This document shows, in pieces, positions 21,288 through 31,544 of a stretch of 64,000 nucleotides of DNA (its first letter is position 1; the number at the start of each line of letters is the position of its first letter). Under the pieces are notes generated by a model. The model worked only from the letters and a program-made list of their open reading frames with translations, made no database searches and had not been told where the DNA came from. The position numbers and the translations under genes were made by a program. Source of the stretch: a bacterium (GTDB taxonomy: Bacteria > Zixibacteria > MSB-5A5 > GN15 > FEB-12); assembly GCA_020444475.1 (NCBI GenBank), contig JAHLKV010000003.1, positions 186,001 through 250,000 of the forward strand, read 5' to 3'.

Positions 21288-21640
21288 CACGAGTACCCCA
21301 CCCCTCTGGGGTGGGTCTACAACAGGCTGGGTGGGCCACCATTTATGGTGGGTTTCTCTGTATTGGGTACCCCACCGCTTGCGGTGGGCTCGAGTACCGA
21401 TGACTTTCCCCGACGTCATCCTGAGCGGAGTCGAAGGGTGACGTCGTCCGACACCCCACGCGAGACGCGCGGGCTACGGGGAATGCTGAATTGTGGCCCA
21501 CCTGAAGTCCCGCCTCGGGAGGGACGACAGGTGGGAATGTTGATGTTCCGTCTGACTCGTGGCCGTAATCCCGGATCAAGCCCGGGGCAGGCTTCAGTCG
21601 CGGTTCACGAGTACCCCACCCCTCTGGGGCGGCCCTACAA
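21288..21640. repeat. Cluster of short GC-rich palindromic intergenic repeats
   Basis: cacgagtaccccacccctctggggtggg at 21288 and cacgagtaccccacccctctggggcgg at 21606; related hairpins ccaccatttatggtgg (about 21337) and ccccaccgcttgcggtggg (about 21370). Confidence 0.85.
21415..21442. repeat. GTCATCCTGAGCGGAGTCGAAGGGTGAC-type dispersed intergenic repeat
   Basis: Sequence read directly; resembles the GTCAT-CCTGAGCGnAGTCGAAGG-ATGAC element seen between genes in many unrelated bacterial genomes. Confidence 0.65.
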
Positions 21641-22378
21641 CAACCGCCCCTGCGCCTCCCCCGGCACATACAACTCCGGCATCGCCTCGTACAACCGACC
21701 ATCCAGCTCCCGCCCGGCCCGCTTCTTGTTCACCCCGCCCCACTGCTTGAAGAAGAAATGCACCCCCTGCAAATCACACTGGTCGCGAATATCTCGCACC
21801 CACTCCGGCTTGATCGGACGAGCCCCCGGCCCCGACTCTCCCCCCACGATCGCCCAGTCAATCCCGCTCAGATCGAGATTACTCAGCGGCCCCAGCAACG
21901 GTTCAAGCGACAGGAACTTTATCGATGCTCCGGTTGCCCGAAGGTCGTTGATCCGGTACACATACTGACGGCTCTCCACCGTCACCCCCATCCAGACATT
22001 CGGCGGCCAGTCGAGCTGGTCGGCGATTCGTTTGAGCCGTTTGGAGCGTTTGGTGAGAATCTGAAACGTATGCATATCGGCCCGGCGCATGACATCGAAC
22101 ACCTGCTGGATGTAGTCGAGCGGCACCCGATCATGAAAGAGATCGGACATCGAATTGACAAACACCACCCGAGGTTTCTTCCACGACAGTGGCGCCGCCA
22201 GCAGGTCCGGGTGAAGCGTGACCGCGAACCCGTTTCTGTATTTGGCGACCCCCATCGCCTGAAGCCGTTTCGCCATTCGGGCGGCATAGCAGTGTTCGCA
22301 CCCCGGCGACACCGGATCACACCCGGTAACGGGATTCCAGGTATGCCAGGTATACTCGATTCTTGAACAAGCAGACAT
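21635..22378 (-). CDS. DUF5131 / phage Gp37/Gp68 family protein
   Basis: TWNPVTGCDPVSPGCEHCYAARMAKRLQAMG ... RVFVNSMSDLFHDRVPLDYIQQVFDVM ... IDWAIVGGESGPGARPIKPEWVRDIRDQC. Confidence 0.9.
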   Translation of the reverse strand: MSACSRIEYTWHTWNPVTGCDPVSPGCEHCYAARMAKRLQAMGVAKYRNGFAVTLHPDLLAAPLSWKKPRVVFVNSMSDLFHDRVPLDYIQQVFDVMRRADMHTFQILTKRSKRLKRIADQLDWPPNVWMGVTVESRQYVYRINDLRATGASIKFLSLEPLLGPLSNLDLSGIDWAIVGGESGPGARPIKPEWVRDIRDQCDLQGVHFFFKQWGGVNKKRAGRELDGRLYEAMPELYVPGEAQGRLL

Positions 22379-22780
22379 CAGGGAGAAAGTAAAGAACAAT
22401 TTGGAGGCCCGGAATCACAAACTCCTGGCTTCAACACTTAGACGATGCGGAAAACGCTCCAAACAGCACTCATTAGGGGCTTTTCGGGTCGCGTCGGATG
22501 CCCCTCGTGCGAGAGGCTCCCAACCAGTTTGAGCAGCGAGTGTTACTTAAGGACACTGCATAATCACTTTTTTCAACAAAGCGGGAACCTTTTTCTGCTC
22601 CCTCCATTATTAATGTAAGGTTTTCGGGTTATGGAGTTTTTTGACCATATTGTGTATGCAGAGGCGATAAGGAATCGTACACGATTAAAATGATTTAACC
22701 ATATGAACAACAACCTTTTACGTAAGCGTATGCATTGTTCGTGCATTACGCCGCATAACTGATTTATTAAGGACTATTGT

Positions 22781-23125
22781 ATGAGCAGAGAGCACGAAAT
22801 TGTACAACAAATCGAGCAACTGCTGGGTGAGCTTAAGGAGCTGTTGGGATCGACTTCAACCACGAAGAGGCGAGTCACTAAGGAGCATCCCGGGGATAAT
22901 CAGTCGCGACGCTTTTCCGGACTAACCAAAATGATTTTCGGTCTCGTGGAGGACGGGTATTTTGATCAGCCCAGGAAGCTGTCTGAAATCCAGAGCAAGC
23001 TGAGGGACGAAGGGGTGAACAAGCCCACCACGAGCCTAATGCGCCCCTTGTTAACTCTGATCCGGCAGAAAGTCTTGGCTCGAAGCAAGCAGCCAAAAGG
23101 CCAGTACGCATACAAGAAACGATAA
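22781..23125 (+). CDS. Small protein with predicted winged-helix-like C-terminal half (island gene 1)
   Basis: FGLVEDGYFDQPRKLSEIQSKLRDEG...PLLTLIRQKVLARSKQPKGQYAYKKR; shared core with the next gene. Confidence 0.7.
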   Translation: MSREHEIVQQIEQLLGELKELLGSTSTTKRRVTKEHPGDNQSRRFSGLTKMIFGLVEDGYFDQPRKLSEIQSKLRDEGVNKPTTSLMRPLLTLIRQKVLARSKQPKGQYAYKKR

Positions 23126-23138
23126 GGAGACAGACCAA

Positions 23139-23489
23139 ATGGCCAAAACCGTGCAGGACATAGTGAAGGACATCCACAAGATGGTGGATGAACTCGCCGG
23201 CTTAGTCGAGGGCCAAGGTACTCGGCGCGCACCGGCTGCGTCCAGTCGAAGGAAAGCAGACGCCCGATCCACGAAGGGAGCTACGGGGGGGGTGAGGCTA
23301 CTGGTGGCGGACGGCTACTTCAATGAGCCTCGAGAGCTATCCGAAGTGGTGGGTGAGCTCAAGAAGGAAGGTCGACACTACGCAAAATCGACCGTTTCGA
23401 TGGCACTACTCAGCCTTACAAGAGAGCGCCTGTTAACCAGACTCGAAAACAAAGCCACGAAAAACTGGCAATATGTCATCAGGAGGTAA
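23139..23489 (+). CDS. Small protein with predicted winged-helix-like C-terminal half (island gene 2, paralogue of gene 1)
   Basis: LLVADGYFNEPRELSEVVGELKKEG...ALLSLTRERLLTRLENKATKNWQYVIRR; rbs aaggag. Confidence 0.72.
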   Translation: MAKTVQDIVKDIHKMVDELAGLVEGQGTRRAPAASSRRKADARSTKGATGGVRLLVADGYFNEPRELSEVVGELKKEGRHYAKSTVSMALLSLTRERLLTRLENKATKNWQYVIRR

Positions 23490-23492
23490 TTC

Positions 23493-23888
23493 ATGTCGCC
23501 TGACAAACAAAAAGACGACCTCGTAGCCCGAGTCGAACGACTGGAGAAGGTGGTATTCGGAGGAGCTGACGAAAACACGTACTCTGCACGCTCCAAATCG
23601 GGAAACAAGAAACCGACGATCGCTGAGATCGCCAAAGGCACTGAGCTCAAGAACGGTCAGGAGAAGGTAGCCTTGGTTGTAGGCTATTTGGAAAAGGTTG
23701 AGGGACGCAGTGAGATACGCCAGAGCGATATCAAGGGAGCTTGGATAGACGGAAAGCTGCAGGGGGACTACGCGAACGTCCTTCTCCAGAGGGCGGTCAA
23801 GGACGGGCTTGTCCGAAACCGCAAGAATGGGATTTACGATTTGAGTCAATCGGGCGAGACGTTCTTTGCCGATCTCATGAAAGCATAG
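23493..23888 (+). CDS. Small predicted winged-helix-like protein (island gene 3)
   Basis: EKVALVVGYLEKVEGRSEIRQSDIKGAWIDGKLQGDYANVLLQRAVKDGLVRNRKNGIYDLSQSGETFFADLM; 3-nt spacing from the previous gene. Confidence 0.7.
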   Translation: MSPDKQKDDLVARVERLEKVVFGGADENTYSARSKSGNKKPTIAEIAKGTELKNGQEKVALVVGYLEKVEGRSEIRQSDIKGAWIDGKLQGDYANVLLQRAVKDGLVRNRKNGIYDLSQSGETFFADLMKA

Positions 23889-23892
23889 CTCC

Positions 23893-24654
23893 ATGGAAGC
23901 GAAGAGCAAAGCCAAGGTCGCATTAGGCGGGATTGTTCAGGATGATCCCCTTGTAGACAACTTGTTCGAGAGCTACACTCAAATAGGTACAGCGTACATC
24001 TCAGGGAAGCCGAAGCAGGCTATTCAGAACGTGGGCTTGTTCGTCGAATCGGCCGCCCGAGTGATTGAACACCTGCTCACCGGACAGCATCCCCAACTCT
24101 CGGCACGGTTTAATCTGGACAAGTGCATTGAGCGATTGGAGAAGCTCGGGGGGCGAGATGGGCTGAGGATAATCGGGGCTCGCCTGTCTCGGGTTCTTTA
24201 TGACTTCCGAACTCGGAAGAGCTCTGTGCATCTCAAGGCTGTGGATCCCCTGCAAGTTGATGCCGAACTCGTGACCACTGCATGTTCATGGATCATGATC
24301 GAGATTCTGAAAGAGTCGGGGCTGTCTGAGGCAGAGGCCTTTATCGAACTAGCTGCAACCAGAAAGACGGTATTGGTCCAGGAGGTCGCAGGAGTCTTGC
24401 GAACCACAAACAGCAAATTGAACGGAGGGCAACGGCTTCTCCTGGTGCTGTATAGCTCCTCGTGCCCTCTAGATGAAGACCAACTTCACAAATCGACCAA
24501 CACCATTATAAAAACCCGAAATCACCTGAGGACGAATCTTGAGAGCCTCCGAAAACGGGATATGGCGCATCGGGATGAAGCCGGGAGATGGCAAATATTC
24601 GGGAAAGGATATACAGCAGCCGAGTCGATCATTTCCAAATTTACCAAGTCATAG
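23893..24654 (+). CDS. HEPN-like helical protein with predicted C-terminal winged helix (island gene 4)
   Basis: N-terminal helical domain ending VLYDFRTRKSSVHLKAVDPLQVDAELVTTACSWIMIEIL (R-x4-H motif); C-terminal GGQRLLLVLYSSSCPLDEDQLHKSTNTIIKTRNHLRTNLESLRKRDMAHRDEAGRWQIFGKGYTAAESI. Confidence 0.6.
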   Translation: MEAKSKAKVALGGIVQDDPLVDNLFESYTQIGTAYISGKPKQAIQNVGLFVESAARVIEHLLTGQHPQLSARFNLDKCIERLEKLGGRDGLRIIGARLSRVLYDFRTRKSSVHLKAVDPLQVDAELVTTACSWIMIEILKESGLSEAEAFIELAATRKTVLVQEVAGVLRTTNSKLNGGQRLLLVLYSSSCPLDEDQLHKSTNTIIKTRNHLRTNLESLRKRDMAHRDEAGRWQIFGKGYTAAESIISKFTKS

Positions 24655-24692
24655 ACTCGTGGCGTGGGTCCTGATTTCGGCATCTCTGGATG

Positions 24693-24720
24693 CACGAGTA
24701 CCCCACCCATCCTGGGTGGG
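24693..24720. repeat. Third copy of the cacgagtaccccaccc(N)ggtggg palindromic repeat
   Basis: cacgagtaccccacccatcctgggtggg, matching the copies at 21288 and 21606. Confidence 0.85.
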
Positions 24721-24731
24721 TTGCCCCAATC

Positions 24732-24761
24732 AAAAAACCCGGCCCCTAACGGGACCGGGTT
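24732..24761 (-). terminator. Rho-independent terminator downstream of pdxS
   Basis: Minus strand aacccggtccc-gtta-ggggccgggtt followed by a T tract. Confidence 0.87.
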
Positions 24762-24794
24762 CGGAGTAAATTCTATGATGCCTGAAGCGCGATA

Positions 24795-25682
24795 CTACCG
24801 CACCTGCAACTGCTCTTCTTTCGGGATCGACTCGGCCTGGATCCCCTTCATCGCGCCGCCCAGCCCGTGCGAGTGCTCCGCGATCACCGCGAAATCCTGC
24901 CAGTGGGTCGTGGCGTTTACGATCGCCGTCCCGAACTTCTCCGGGTTGCTCGACTTGAAAATGCCCGAGCCGACAAACACCGCCTCGGCGCCCAGGTGCA
25001 TGCACAACGCAGCATCGGCCGGAGTCGCTACCCCGCCGGCGGCGAAATTCGGCACCGGGAGCTTACCCGTCTCGGCCACCTTGCGAACCAGGTCGATCGA
25101 CACCCGATGCTCCTTCGCGACCCCGTACAGCTCGGTCTCGGTCATCGAAGTCAGCGTCCGCATCACCGACGTAATCTCGCGCAGGTGCTTGACCGCCTGC
25201 GAAACATCACCGGTACCCGCTTCGCCCTTGGTGCGGATCATCGCGGCCCCTTCGGAGATTCGCCGAAGCGCCTCGCCGAGATTGCGGCAGCCGCACACGA
25301 ACGGTACCTTGAAATCCCATTTGTTGACATGGAACACGCTGTCGGCCGGCGTGAGCACTTCGGACTCATCGATGAAGTCGATTTCCATCGTCTCCAAAAC
25401 GCGCGCTTCGACAAAGTGCCCGATCCGGCATTTGGCCATAACCGGAATCGTGACCACTCGTTTGATCCCGTCGATCACGTCCAGATCGGCCATACGCGCC
25501 ACGCCCCCTTCGGCCCGGATGTCGGAGGGCACGCGTTCGAGCGCCATCACGGCGGAGGCGCCGCACTGCTCGGCGATCTTTGCCTGCTCCGGGGTGGTAA
25601 CGTCCATTATGACGCCGCCCTTGAGCATCTCGGCCAGACCGACCTTTACTTTATGTTCCTTGGAGTCGAACCGTGTCATCAT
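24795..25682 (-). CDS. pdxS: Pyridoxal 5'-phosphate synthase lyase subunit
   Basis: [52 protein letters not shown]. Confidence 0.97.
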
Positions 25683-27820: not shown

Positions 27821-28576
27821 ATGCCTGGAAAATGCAAACTCGACAATGAGCGCGGCTATTCGCTGATCGAACTGGTGATCGTCATCATGATAGTCGGCGT
27901 GATCGCCGGTATTGCTGTCCGCTCGCTCAAAAGCAGCAACGAGGTATCCCGCACCAATGAGACGGTCGCGGAGATGGACCGACTGGCCTGTGCTATCGCC
28001 GGTGACCCGCACCACCTGTCGGGTGGCACCAGGGTCGACTACGGTTACATCGGCGATGTCGGCGCCTGCCCGATCAATCTCGACGCTCTCGTCTCCAACC
28101 CGGGATACGGCACCTGGGATGGCCCGTATATACGCGATGAGCTATCCACCGGAGCAGCAGACTACACGTTTAAGCTCGACGCCTGGGGCGCCCCCTATGT
28201 CTATGCCGGTGGCGCTTCGATCATCTCAAACGGGTCGTCATCACCACTGACCAGACAACTCGCGGCGTCCACAGGCGACTTGCTCTACAACCGCGTCTCG
28301 CTCGCCGTCATCGATCAGGACCAGGTCCCGCCGGGCTCGATCTACCACGACTCACTGAGACTGGTACTGACATGCCCCGATGGTTCCGGATCGTATCGAT
28401 CACTGGTCAGGACTCCCGATCCCAACGGCTACGTCGAGTTTGACTCCATCCCGATCGGCCTGCACCGCCTGCATATCGTCTATCTACCGGCTTCCGACAC
28501 GCTCACCCGCCTGATCCCGGTCGATCCCGGCCGGGACTTCTACACCGAAATCACTCTCTCCCGGGAGCTGTGGTGA
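27821..28576 (+). CDS. Pseudopilin-like protein 1 (class III/GspG-like signal) with C-terminal beta domain
   Basis: ERGYSLIELVIVIMIVGVIAGIAVRSL prepilin motif; DYGYIGDVGACPINLDALVSNPGYGTWDGPYI; DAWGAPYVYAGG; IPIGLHRLHIVYLPASDTLTRLI. Confidence 0.85.
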   Translation: MPGKCKLDNERGYSLIELVIVIMIVGVIAGIAVRSLKSSNEVSRTNETVAEMDRLACAIAGDPHHLSGGTRVDYGYIGDVGACPINLDALVSNPGYGTWDGPYIRDELSTGAADYTFKLDAWGAPYVYAGGASIISNGSSSPLTRQLAASTGDLLYNRVSLAVIDQDQVPPGSIYHDSLRLVLTCPDGSGSYRSLVRTPDPNGYVEFDSIPIGLHRLHIVYLPASDTLTRLIPVDPGRDFYTEITLSRELW

Positions 28577-30384
28577 TGAACGGGCACCGACACGGCACAG
28601 AGCGCGGCTTCAGTTTGATCGAGCTGTTGGTTGTCATCGTCGTAGTGGGCATCCTTGCCGCAATCGCCATGCAATCGATGAGCGGACTGGTGGTCGATAT
28701 GCGCAGGGTTAAAACCGAACGTGAAATGGAAATGCTGGCTTCGGCGATTGCCGGCGACCCGTCGGTGATGCAATCCGGCGTGCGTTCCGAATTCGGTTAT
28801 GTCGGCGATATCGGCGCGTTCCCACCAAACCTCGATGCTCTCGTGTCGAACCCCGGTTTGGGCACCTGGGATGGTCCGTATATTCCCGATGGTATCGCCG
28901 AAGACAACAATGGGTTCAAGCTCGATGCATGGGGCGCAGCCTATCAATACACCGGCGGCGTGACAATCACCTCGACCGGCTCCGGCTCGACAATGACAAA
29001 AACCATCGCCGATGCATCTTCGGACTATCTCGACAACACCTTCGCCGGTCGCGTGCTCGACGCCTCAGGCGGCGTGCCGGGCCCGGTCTATCGCGACTCC
29101 GTATATATCGCCATCTTCTACCCCGATGGCTCCGGATCGATGACGTCGCAGTACGTCAATCCCGACTCGGCCGGCAATTTCGCAATCCCCGATCTGCCCG
29201 CCGGTCGACATCGCCTGGAGCTCGTCTTCACCCCGACCGTCGATACGCTGGTCCGCTACGCCACGGTCCTGCCCCGGCACAACGGAGCGGCGCGCTACAA
29301 GTTCGCTGCCGACTACTTTGGCGGAAGCGCCTCGGCGTTCGGCCGTCGCTGTGAGTTGATTATCGTCGCCGCCCGCGTGCCCGACGACCTGACCGACTTC
29401 CCGCTGCTGCTGACGCAGCTGAATCTTCCGTCGGAGATGCTCGATGCCGACGGCGCCCATTCGGCCGACAACGGCGGCGGTGATATCCGCTTCACGCTCG
29501 ATCGCGATGGGACCGTCTCCTTGCCCTGCGAAGTGGTCGACTTCACGACCAACTCCAATCCGGTCATGGCCGAAGCGGAGATATGGGTGAACGTGCCTTC
29601 GGTGTCGGCCAGCGTGAACACATCGATCTGGGTCTGGTACGACCAGCCGGGCGCGACACAGCCGCTGCCTGGCGATCCCGGAGGCGCCTTCGAAGTCTGG
29701 GACTCGAATTATGTCGTCGTACAACACCTCGATGACAACCCCGGAGGTCCCGCGCCGCAGGCGATCGACGCCACCCGGAACGGCAACAACGGCACATCGT
29801 ACGGCGGCATGGGATCGAGCGACCTGGTCTCCGGTCAGATCGGACGAGCGATTGATTTCGACGGCAGCAACGACTATCTGCGGATCCCCGCTGCCGGAGT
29901 CACCGTAAGCGACAAGGCGATCACTATGGAAGGCTGGATGTACCTCCGCGGCGCCACCGGTCGCGCCAACCTGATGCAGCGAGGCTCAAACTATGCACTG
30001 TGGGAAATCCGGTCCGGCGGTACACCCTACAACGTCTTCTACGACAACACCTGGCGCAAATTCAATTACGGTCAACCGGCCACGTGGTTCCTCGATGACT
30101 GGCACTATGTCGTCTGTACGTACGACGGTACCTATGTGCGGTCATACATTGACGGTGACCCGGATGAGACGGCGGCCTACTCCAGTGATCTGAACCCGAC
30201 CGCCAGCAATTACGATATGGGAATTGGCGTGAATGCCGGCTGGAACGACTCGTACTACCGGGGCCGGGCTGATGAGGTTCGCGTCTCCCGTGTCGTGCGG
30301 TCGGCAGCTTACGTCAAGGCTCAGTACAACAACCATGACAGCCCGCACACGTTCGTGCTGCCGCAATCACCGGAGACTCCCTGA
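28570..30384 (+). CDS. Pseudopilin-like protein 2 with DUF2341-like and LamG/concanavalin-like C-terminal domains
   Basis: ERGFSLIELLVVIVVVGILAAIAMQSM; GYVGDIGAFPPNLDALVSNPGLGTWDGPYI; LamG-like region IDFDGSNDYLRIPAAGVTVSDKAITMEGWMYLR...WHYVVCTYDGTYVRSYIDGD. Confidence 0.85.
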   Translation: MVMNGHRHGTERGFSLIELLVVIVVVGILAAIAMQSMSGLVVDMRRVKTEREMEMLASAIAGDPSVMQSGVRSEFGYVGDIGAFPPNLDALVSNPGLGTWDGPYIPDGIAEDNNGFKLDAWGAAYQYTGGVTITSTGSGSTMTKTIADASSDYLDNTFAGRVLDASGGVPGPVYRDSVYIAIFYPDGSGSMTSQYVNPDSAGNFAIPDLPAGRHRLELVFTPTVDTLVRYATVLPRHNGAARYKFAADYFGGSASAFGRRCELIIVAARVPDDLTDFPLLLTQLNLPSEMLDADGAHSADNGGGDIRFTLDRDGTVSLPCEVVDFTTNSNPVMAEAEIWVNVPSVSASVNTSIWVWYDQPGATQPLPGDPGGAFEVWDSNYVVVQHLDDNPGGPAPQAIDATRNGNNGTSYGGMGSSDLVSGQIGRAIDFDGSNDYLRIPAAGVTVSDKAITMEGWMYLRGATGRANLMQRGSNYALWEIRSGGTPYNVFYDNTWRKFNYGQPATWFLDDWHYVVCTYDGTYVRSYIDGDPDETAAYSSDLNPTASNYDMGIGVNAGWNDSYYRGRADEVRVSRVVRSAAYVKAQYNNHDSPHTFVLPQSPETP

Positions 30385-31544
30385 TGAGTAACGGAACAGA
30401 CAGACGGCACAACAACGCTGGTTTCACCCTGATCGAGCTCGCTATCGTGATCGTCATTGCAGGTATATTGGTCACCATCGCCCTGCGCGGTGGAAAGTCG
30501 ATTTCAGAGACGAGCAAGCTCGAAGAGACTCGGCAGGAAATGGACGCTTTGGCGAGAGCTATTGTCGGCGACCCGGATTTGTACAACAACGGTATCCGGT
30601 CCGACTTCGGTTATGTCGGCGACATCGGTTCGCTGCCTCCGAATCTCGACGCGCTTCACACCAATCCCGGCGGTTTCGCAACCTGGCGTGGACCGTACGT
30701 AGAAAACCGTTTCGTGCAAACGGCCGATGATTTCAAACGCGACGCCTGGGGATCGACCTACGCCTACACCGGCGGCGAGACCATTAACTCAAGTGGATCC
30801 GGTTCGACCGTCTCCCGTCGCATAGTCGAATCGACCACTCATCTGCTGTACAATTCAGTTGCGGGCAATGTCTTCGATCTCGACGGCACCCCCCCGGGAC
30901 CGGGCTATGGTGATTCGGTGCTGGTGAGATTAACCTTCCCCGACGGTATCGGCGGTTATACCTACGACAATATCTCGCCGGACGACGGCGGCTTCTTCGA
31001 GTTCGATTCGATCCCGGTCGGCAACCACGATCTGCTGCTGGTCTATCAACCGACCGCCGACACCCTGCGGCGCTTCGTCTCCGTCCTGCCCAACAGCAGG
31101 TTGTACGCCGAGTACCATCTTCCGGCCAATGTCTGGCCGCCGGGGGCGGGCGGATCACCGGGCGGAGTGGGACCGATAGCGGGCTCCGACTCCTTGTACT
31201 CCGACTGCCACGGATTCTCGCTCTGGATCGAGAACACCGGCGCGACCGACATCGATGTCGACTGGGTAACGTTGTCGTGGCTCTCCCCCACGGCGTACTA
31301 CCGCTATGTCATCTGGGATGGGACGACGGTTGCAAATGAGAACAGCCCGAAGATAGCCTCCGGACAGCCGGCCACGTTCACCTCCACGCAGACACTCGCC
31401 GCCGGCGCTTCCATACGACTTGATTTCGACTTCTTCAAATCGCAACCCACCGGCGGGCCAAATGTCGACATGGACCATACTGACTTCACGCTCACCTTCT
31501 CCGACGGTTCGTCGTTTGAGATCACCACCGGGGACTGCCCATGA
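30384..31544 (+). CDS. Pseudopilin-like protein 3 with extra C-terminal beta domain
   Basis: NAGFTLIELAIVIVIAGILVTIALRGG; GYVGDIGSLPPNLDALHTNPGGFATWRGPYV; extra domain SDCHGFSLWIENTGATDIDVDWVTLSW...DFTLTFSDGSSFEITTGDCP. Confidence 0.85.
   Translation: MSNGTDRRHNNAGFTLIELAIVIVIAGILVTIALRGGKSISETSKLEETRQEMDALARAIVGDPDLYNNGIRSDFGYVGDIGSLPPNLDALHTNPGGFATWRGPYVENRFVQTADDFKRDAWGSTYAYTGGETINSSGSGSTVSRRIVESTTHLLYNSVAGNVFDLDGTPPGPGYGDSVLVRLTFPDGIGGYTYDNISPDDGGFFEFDSIPVGNHDLLLVYQPTADTLRRFVSVLPNSRLYAEYHLPANVWPPGAGGSPGGVGPIAGSDSLYSDCHGFSLWIENTGATDIDVDWVTLSWLSPTAYYRYVIWDGTTVANENSPKIASGQPATFTSTQTLAAGASIRLDFDFFKSQPTGGPNVDMDHTDFTLTFSDGSSFEITTGDCP

Follow-up and report, generated by a model that had tools for sequence, protein, structure and literature searches.

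A four-gene operon in the analysed window (a stretch of 64,000 nucleotides from a Zixibacteria contig, whose numbering is used throughout) encodes three small winged-helix-type partner proteins followed by a predicted HEPN-winged-helix protein. The operon is more than a chance arrangement, because 57 homologues of its last protein could be aligned, the genes are under purifying selection, and the same operon plan recurs elsewhere. The module is real, conserved, mobile-looking and uncatalogued. The kinds of parts, HEPN and winged helix, are known, and no description of their combination was found in the open PMC papers searched. The family occurs in about 15 phyla, nearly always in a module of two to four genes, without an entry in Pfam, NCBIfam or PADLOC.

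The operon lies in an accessory segment

The four open reading frames occupy 22781-24654 on the + strand and are separated by 13, 3 and 4 nt. This layout, on the strand opposite to that of the neighbouring genes, had been reported in the first-pass annotation, and its coordinates proved exact. The neighbours on the - strand are lipA, pdxT and a DUF5131 gene upstream and pdxS downstream of the operon. Purine-rich sequences resembling Shine-Dalgarno sites precede genes 1-3, and none is obvious before gene 4.

Comparison by blastn with the sister locus L094 delimited an accessory segment of about 2.4 kb (22364-24795), as the collinear blocks stop at 22363 and restart at 24796. The GC content is 52.7% in the module versus 58.3% in the whole window. 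In G063, the nearest relative compared, the locus consists of pdxS, the DUF5131 gene and pdxT without the module, and 810 bp of unalignable sequence takes the place of 22364-24795. The PdxS proteins of G063 and the window are 97% identical, and their genes are about 82% identical at the DNA level. The three genes pdxS, DUF5131 and pdxT are also close together in more distant genomes (e.g., L074). No convincing tRNA or repeat boundaries of the segment were found.

Two further features of the region were observed. The sequence CACGAGTACCCCACCC is present in three exact intergenic copies in the window (21288-21303, 21606-21621 and 24693-24708; 0.01 expected), which sit around the DUF5131 gene and just past the module and are REP-like; it was not seen in L094. 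Further downstream, 27821-31544 carries three tandem genes whose products (251, 604 and 386 aa) begin with prepilin-type N-termini and resemble one another in the rest of the protein.

Protein 4 is a predicted HEPN-winged-helix protein

Protein 4 (P0004; 253 aa; 23893-24654, + strand) is the predicted RNase effector of the module. The AlphaFold2 (AF2) model, built with a 57-row alignment of homologues (A4), had a pLDDT of 89 and consists of an all-helical region through residue 156, which we predict to be a HEPN domain (residues 1-156; 23893-24360, +), and a C-terminal winged helix (residues 160-252; 24370-24648, +). In a Foldseek search of the PDB, the model matched many winged helices with a probability of 1.0 and the HEPN structures 2hsb (probability 0.98; TM score 0.61 on the target) and 1ufb (probability 0.77). 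The E-values of the HEPN matches were weak (0.45 and 0.63, respectively), and no match fell below 0.001. At the sequence level, P0004 had no match in Pfam, NCBIfam, PADLOC or PDB sequences, and no HEPN family matched it; among the 57 homologues, no family in the same libraries was matched by more than one at E<0.01.

Eight positions are invariant in A4: E52, R106, H113, D118, D123, W133, A147 and G239. The putative HEPN catalytic pair is R106-x6-H113 (24208-24231, +; R106 codon at 24208-24210, H113 codon at 24229-24231), which is present in 57/57 rows. This conservation is partly ascertained, since the scan patterns used to collect homologues contained part of the motif. When 243 Bradyrhizobium genomes were searched with an HMM, without that motif as a search pattern, seven divergent homologues (L108-L114) emerged, and all seven keep R-x5-H or R-x6-H. 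In homologue P0006, the Arg equivalent to R106 is lost. By fold and by the conserved R-x4-6-H motif, P0004 is likely a member of the HEPN superfamily; this assignment rests on a predicted model, and RNase activity and dimerisation are inferred.

The first-pass annotation had described protein 4 as a HEPN-like protein with a C-terminal winged-helix segment, and both parts held. Its proposed R-x4-H motif held only in part: R108-x4-H113 exists and H113 is the right histidine, but the arginine was misassigned. R108 is not conserved, and R108-x4-H113 was rejected as the catalytic pair.

The window copy retains R106, H113, D118 and D123, has lost the GGD stretch of the motif, and forms a very long branch in the HEPN tree (4.28 changes per column). 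Because of the long branch and the missing GGD part, P0004 of the window may possibly differ in function from the rest of the family.

Proteins 1-3 are winged-helix-type partners

The three genes upstream of P0004, all on the + strand, encode P0001 (22781-23125; 114 aa; partner class A), its paralogue P0002 (23139-23489; 116 aa; class A; phmmer 3e-13) and P0003 (23493-23888; 131 aa), which belongs to another partner class and has a winged-helix-like C-terminal half. The AF2 model of P0001 (pLDDT 86) shows an N-terminal helix (residues 3-23), a disordered linker and a winged helix (residues 47-113), and Foldseek aligned it with a probability of 1.0 to the winged helices of Fur, RosR, BlaI and Z-alpha domains. 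Homologues of P0001 are found beside other members of the HEPN family. P0003 scored 21 bits against a profile (A8) built without it, whereas the best of 500 shuffled sequences scored 5.0. The earlier proposal that proteins 1-3 are winged-helix-like therefore held, for protein 1 by structure, for protein 2 by sequence homology and for protein 3 by the profile match. Searches of Pfam with P0001-P0003 gave only two chance-level matches, neither of them Panacea, and no NCBIfam or PADLOC model was matched. A Z-DNA-binding function of P0001, considered in view of the matches to the Z-alpha domains of ZBP1 and ADAR, was set aside, and we take these matches as generic winged-helix similarity.

Single-linkage clustering of the partners proved too permissive; at 1e-6, the network resolved into about seven classes plus singletons. 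A common origin of all partner classes in one family remains unproven: when profiles were compared, neither class C nor the P0003-like class matched class A significantly.

Partners and effectors recur together across distant lineages

A search of genome contigs with P0004 alone gave nothing, and an alignment of Zixibacteria relatives (A3) was needed. The HEPN-winged-helix family was then found at 59 loci in genome contigs of about 15 phyla, including Bathyarchaeota. At 52 of 55 loci, phmmer (E<1e-3) related the gene immediately preceding HEPN to a gene at some other HEPN locus. Among control ORFs from these loci, 8 of 284 had such a homologue, and inspection showed several of these to be additional partner genes. 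In the Bradyrhizobium HMM sample, a partner lies directly upstream in 12 of 13 intact HEPN copies. Most partner-HEPN spacings are between -41 and +28 nt. Three partners, as in the window, are present in L051 and L061; two in L063, L068, L071, L109, L110 and L112; and two partner units are fused in L022, L024, L025 and L113. That the genes co-occur in other genomes, one of the points on which the first-pass annotation could have been refuted, is thus confirmed.

Partner classes also co-segregate with clades of the HEPN tree. Class A partners accompany one 12-row clade (11/11 non-window rows; support 98/96), class B partners a 16-row clade (14/15; support 100/100) and class C partners a 10-row clade (9/9; support 85/84). 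The ratio dN/dS among relatives is 0.05-0.11 for HEPN genes and 0.09-0.24 for partner genes, indicating strong purifying selection.

Phylum labels on the HEPN tree require 31 changes, with a minimum of 14, which fits horizontal spread without proving it. Occurrence is patchy: the family is present in 15/243 Bradyrhizobium and 5/132 Zixibacteria genomes and is missing from both other genomes of the same genus, and a genome usually carries one copy of the module. Plasmids are nearly free of the family (1 of 72,556 records, from Natronomonas). It was not found in phage records, nor in IMG/VR viral contigs by peptide patterns, and an origin from phages, plasmids or viral contigs was rejected on these counts. 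The one plasmid locus (L007), on Natronomonas pharaonis PL131, encodes an archaeal homologue (P0009) without a recognisable upstream partner. Across loci, the module neighbours are mostly ordinary metabolic genes. The 124 nearest neighbours included scattered PADLOC matches (DarTG, restriction-modification subunits, a methyltransferase) and three integrases; without a statistical control, no strong defence-island signal was apparent.

The same partner types adjoin other predicted effectors

Partner-centred searches with class C and class A partners in the same Bradyrhizobium genomes revealed loci in which partners occur without this HEPN gene. In G279 (L136; G279:C1:1948000-1955000), two partners are followed after 4 nt by a winged-helix-like protein with a HEPN_Swt1 domain (PF18731, 2e-8). 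In G343 (L157), a class A partner is followed after 3 nt by a DUF4145-like protein with RTIGHLSAH (6e-4, just under the cut-off). In G245 and G154 (L137 and L138), a class C partner comes directly after a winged-helix-like protein with a PNP_UDP_1 domain (PF01048; 1e-15 for the L137 copy), and G299 has a decayed partner locus without this HEPN. Elsewhere, a HEPN module is followed downstream by a partner-like gene with ParA-like and RelA/SpoT-like neighbours (L036:7428-9751). At L058:1379-2829, a 287-aa protein comes after a second partner; it has no PDB sequence match, and its TIR-like appearance, judged only by eye, remains a guess. Class B partners were examined in 338 genomes from a single phylum and class C partners in 318 from a single class, and no new effectors came to light. 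Because the same partners adjoin unrelated predicted effectors, the partner module may be a base onto which different killers are placed, which we put forward only as a possibility, as the effector roles are predicted.

These data bear on two alternative explanations. In the first, the module is a type II-like toxin-antitoxin system, in which winged-helix antitoxins neutralise a HEPN toxin and autorepress the operon, serving addiction or stabilisation and not phage sensing. In its favour, a small DNA-binding gene comes first and the toxin gene second with near-zero or overlapping spacing, the module is compact and horizontally spread, and the effectors are exchanged as they are beside promiscuous antitoxins such as Panacea (PMC10440598). 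Against it, plasmids and phages, where addiction modules are common, are nearly free of the family, there is usually one copy per genome, and it would be unusual for a toxin-antitoxin pair to have a winged helix in the toxin itself and as many as three different partners. We consider this explanation unlikely.

In the second, the winged-helix proteins assemble on DNA as a regulatory or chromatin complex, and HEPN is a dimerisation scaffold only. Every protein of the module has a winged-helix-like domain, and solitary class A winged-helix genes without an effector exist in Zixibacteria family f16. However, the Arg, the His, two Asp and the Trp of the HEPN domain are invariant, other predicted toxic enzymes (Swt1 HEPN, PNP, DUF4145) replace HEPN beside the same partners, and the distribution is patchy and transfer-like. 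This explanation seems very unlikely to us. The solitary genes (L155 and L156) encode a class A winged-helix protein with a Lys-rich linker and adjoin a gene resembling pyruvate phosphate dikinase; they are possibly domesticated partners.

Proposed mechanism

We lean, with limited confidence, towards a horizontally spread conflict module of the abortive-infection or toxin type. Gene order, the computed folds of proteins 1 and 4, the conserved putative catalytic pair, the recurrent pairing, partner-effector co-segregation, effector exchange, patchy distribution and purifying selection are the computed basis of this reading, whereas RNase activity, dimerisation, the complex, the trigger and defence are inferred. 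Protein 4 would act as a HEPN RNase dimer that carries a winged helix of its own. Proteins 1-3 would each combine a short oligomerisation-type segment at the N-terminus with a flexible linker; they would be made just before protein 4 and probably form with it a nucleic-acid-bound complex in which the RNase is kept silent or positioned. The RNase would be freed by a trigger, for example nucleic acid of foreign origin or a DNA-binding phage protein that competes for the DNA held in the complex. Cleavage of host RNA, perhaps of tRNA, may follow and arrest the infected cell. The structural precedent for a HEPN RNase that is silent or aimed is retron-Kva2, by analogy only. Against this reading stand the lack of activity data, the absence of a strong defence-island signal, the weak HEPN E-values, the long branch and missing GGD of the window P0004, and the lack in P0006 of an Arg equivalent to R106. 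The defence role raised in the first-pass annotation thus remains an inference, while its interpretation as a module is otherwise supported.

A bolder reading, which we find a little harder to believe than to doubt, is that the winged-helix partners are the constant part and the effector the exchangeable part of an undescribed modular class of prokaryotic immunity with neither an NTPase nor a reverse transcriptase. The winged-helix proteins would respond to nucleic acid or DNA-binding proteins of an invader by releasing one of several killers: HEPN-wHTH, Swt1 HEPN, DUF4145, PNP nucleosidase, and perhaps RelA/SpoT or TIR-like proteins. If the partners are such a general sensor or lock for plug-in killers, this would be a simple immune design like that of HEPN retrons, without msDNA. 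It predicts that a partner and an effector will associate in a complex if they come from the same clade, and that those of one clade cannot stand in for those of another.

Comparison with known systems

The earlier statement that no named system matches the module held for Pfam, NCBIfam, PADLOC (2023), PDB sequences and the open literature. Its identity with a known defence system was rejected, as no PADLOC (2023), Pfam or NCBIfam model matched, and no description was found in the main texts of the open PMC literature searched. An operon of HEPN-wHTH with wHTH partners was not found in the wHTH passages of the main text of Anantharaman et al. 2013 (PMC3710099). With the HEPN superfamily of defence and toxin proteins (PMC3710099; Pfam HEPN_Swt1, DUF4145) the module shares the helical domain and R-x4-6-H, but unlike the catalogued HEPN families it matches no library model.

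The tight operon, with most gaps between -41 and +28 nt, resembles type II toxin-antitoxin systems. HEPN-MNT (named in PMC10440598) is likewise a two-gene HEPN toxin operon; the module, in contrast, has no nucleotidyltransferase, and its partners are winged-helix proteins. In the promiscuous antitoxins (Panacea/PanA, HTH antitoxins, NetFlax), one small partner family is combined with unrelated toxins (PMC10440598). The module too pairs a small partner family with unrelated predicted effectors, but it has no Panacea domain match, it has several partner classes with two or three partners stacked per operon, and neutralisation has not been shown.

A further parallel is the type IX retron Kva2, in which a HEPN RNase dimer is sequestered with winged-helix proteins and msDNA, all from one operon, and remains inactive as long as no phage HTH protein competes for the DNA (PMC13405049). 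This likeness, which concerns folds only (an operon that combines HEPN with a small DNA-binding protein of the winged-helix type), raises the possibility that the module derives from a type IX HEPN and winged-helix retron whose RT and msDNA were lost or lie elsewhere. However, type IX retrons have an RT, and no ORF with RT motifs was seen in the module loci; they have an msr-msd ncRNA, whereas the module has no Rfam match and its upstream region (22400-22780) folds no better than shuffled sequences (z -0.30). We regard such a derivation as very unlikely. The Kva2 HEPN also lacks R-x4-6-H, whereas the module family has R-x6-H, and the module HEPN, in contrast to that of the retron, is fused to its own winged helix, is accompanied by up to three partners and can be replaced by other predicted effectors.
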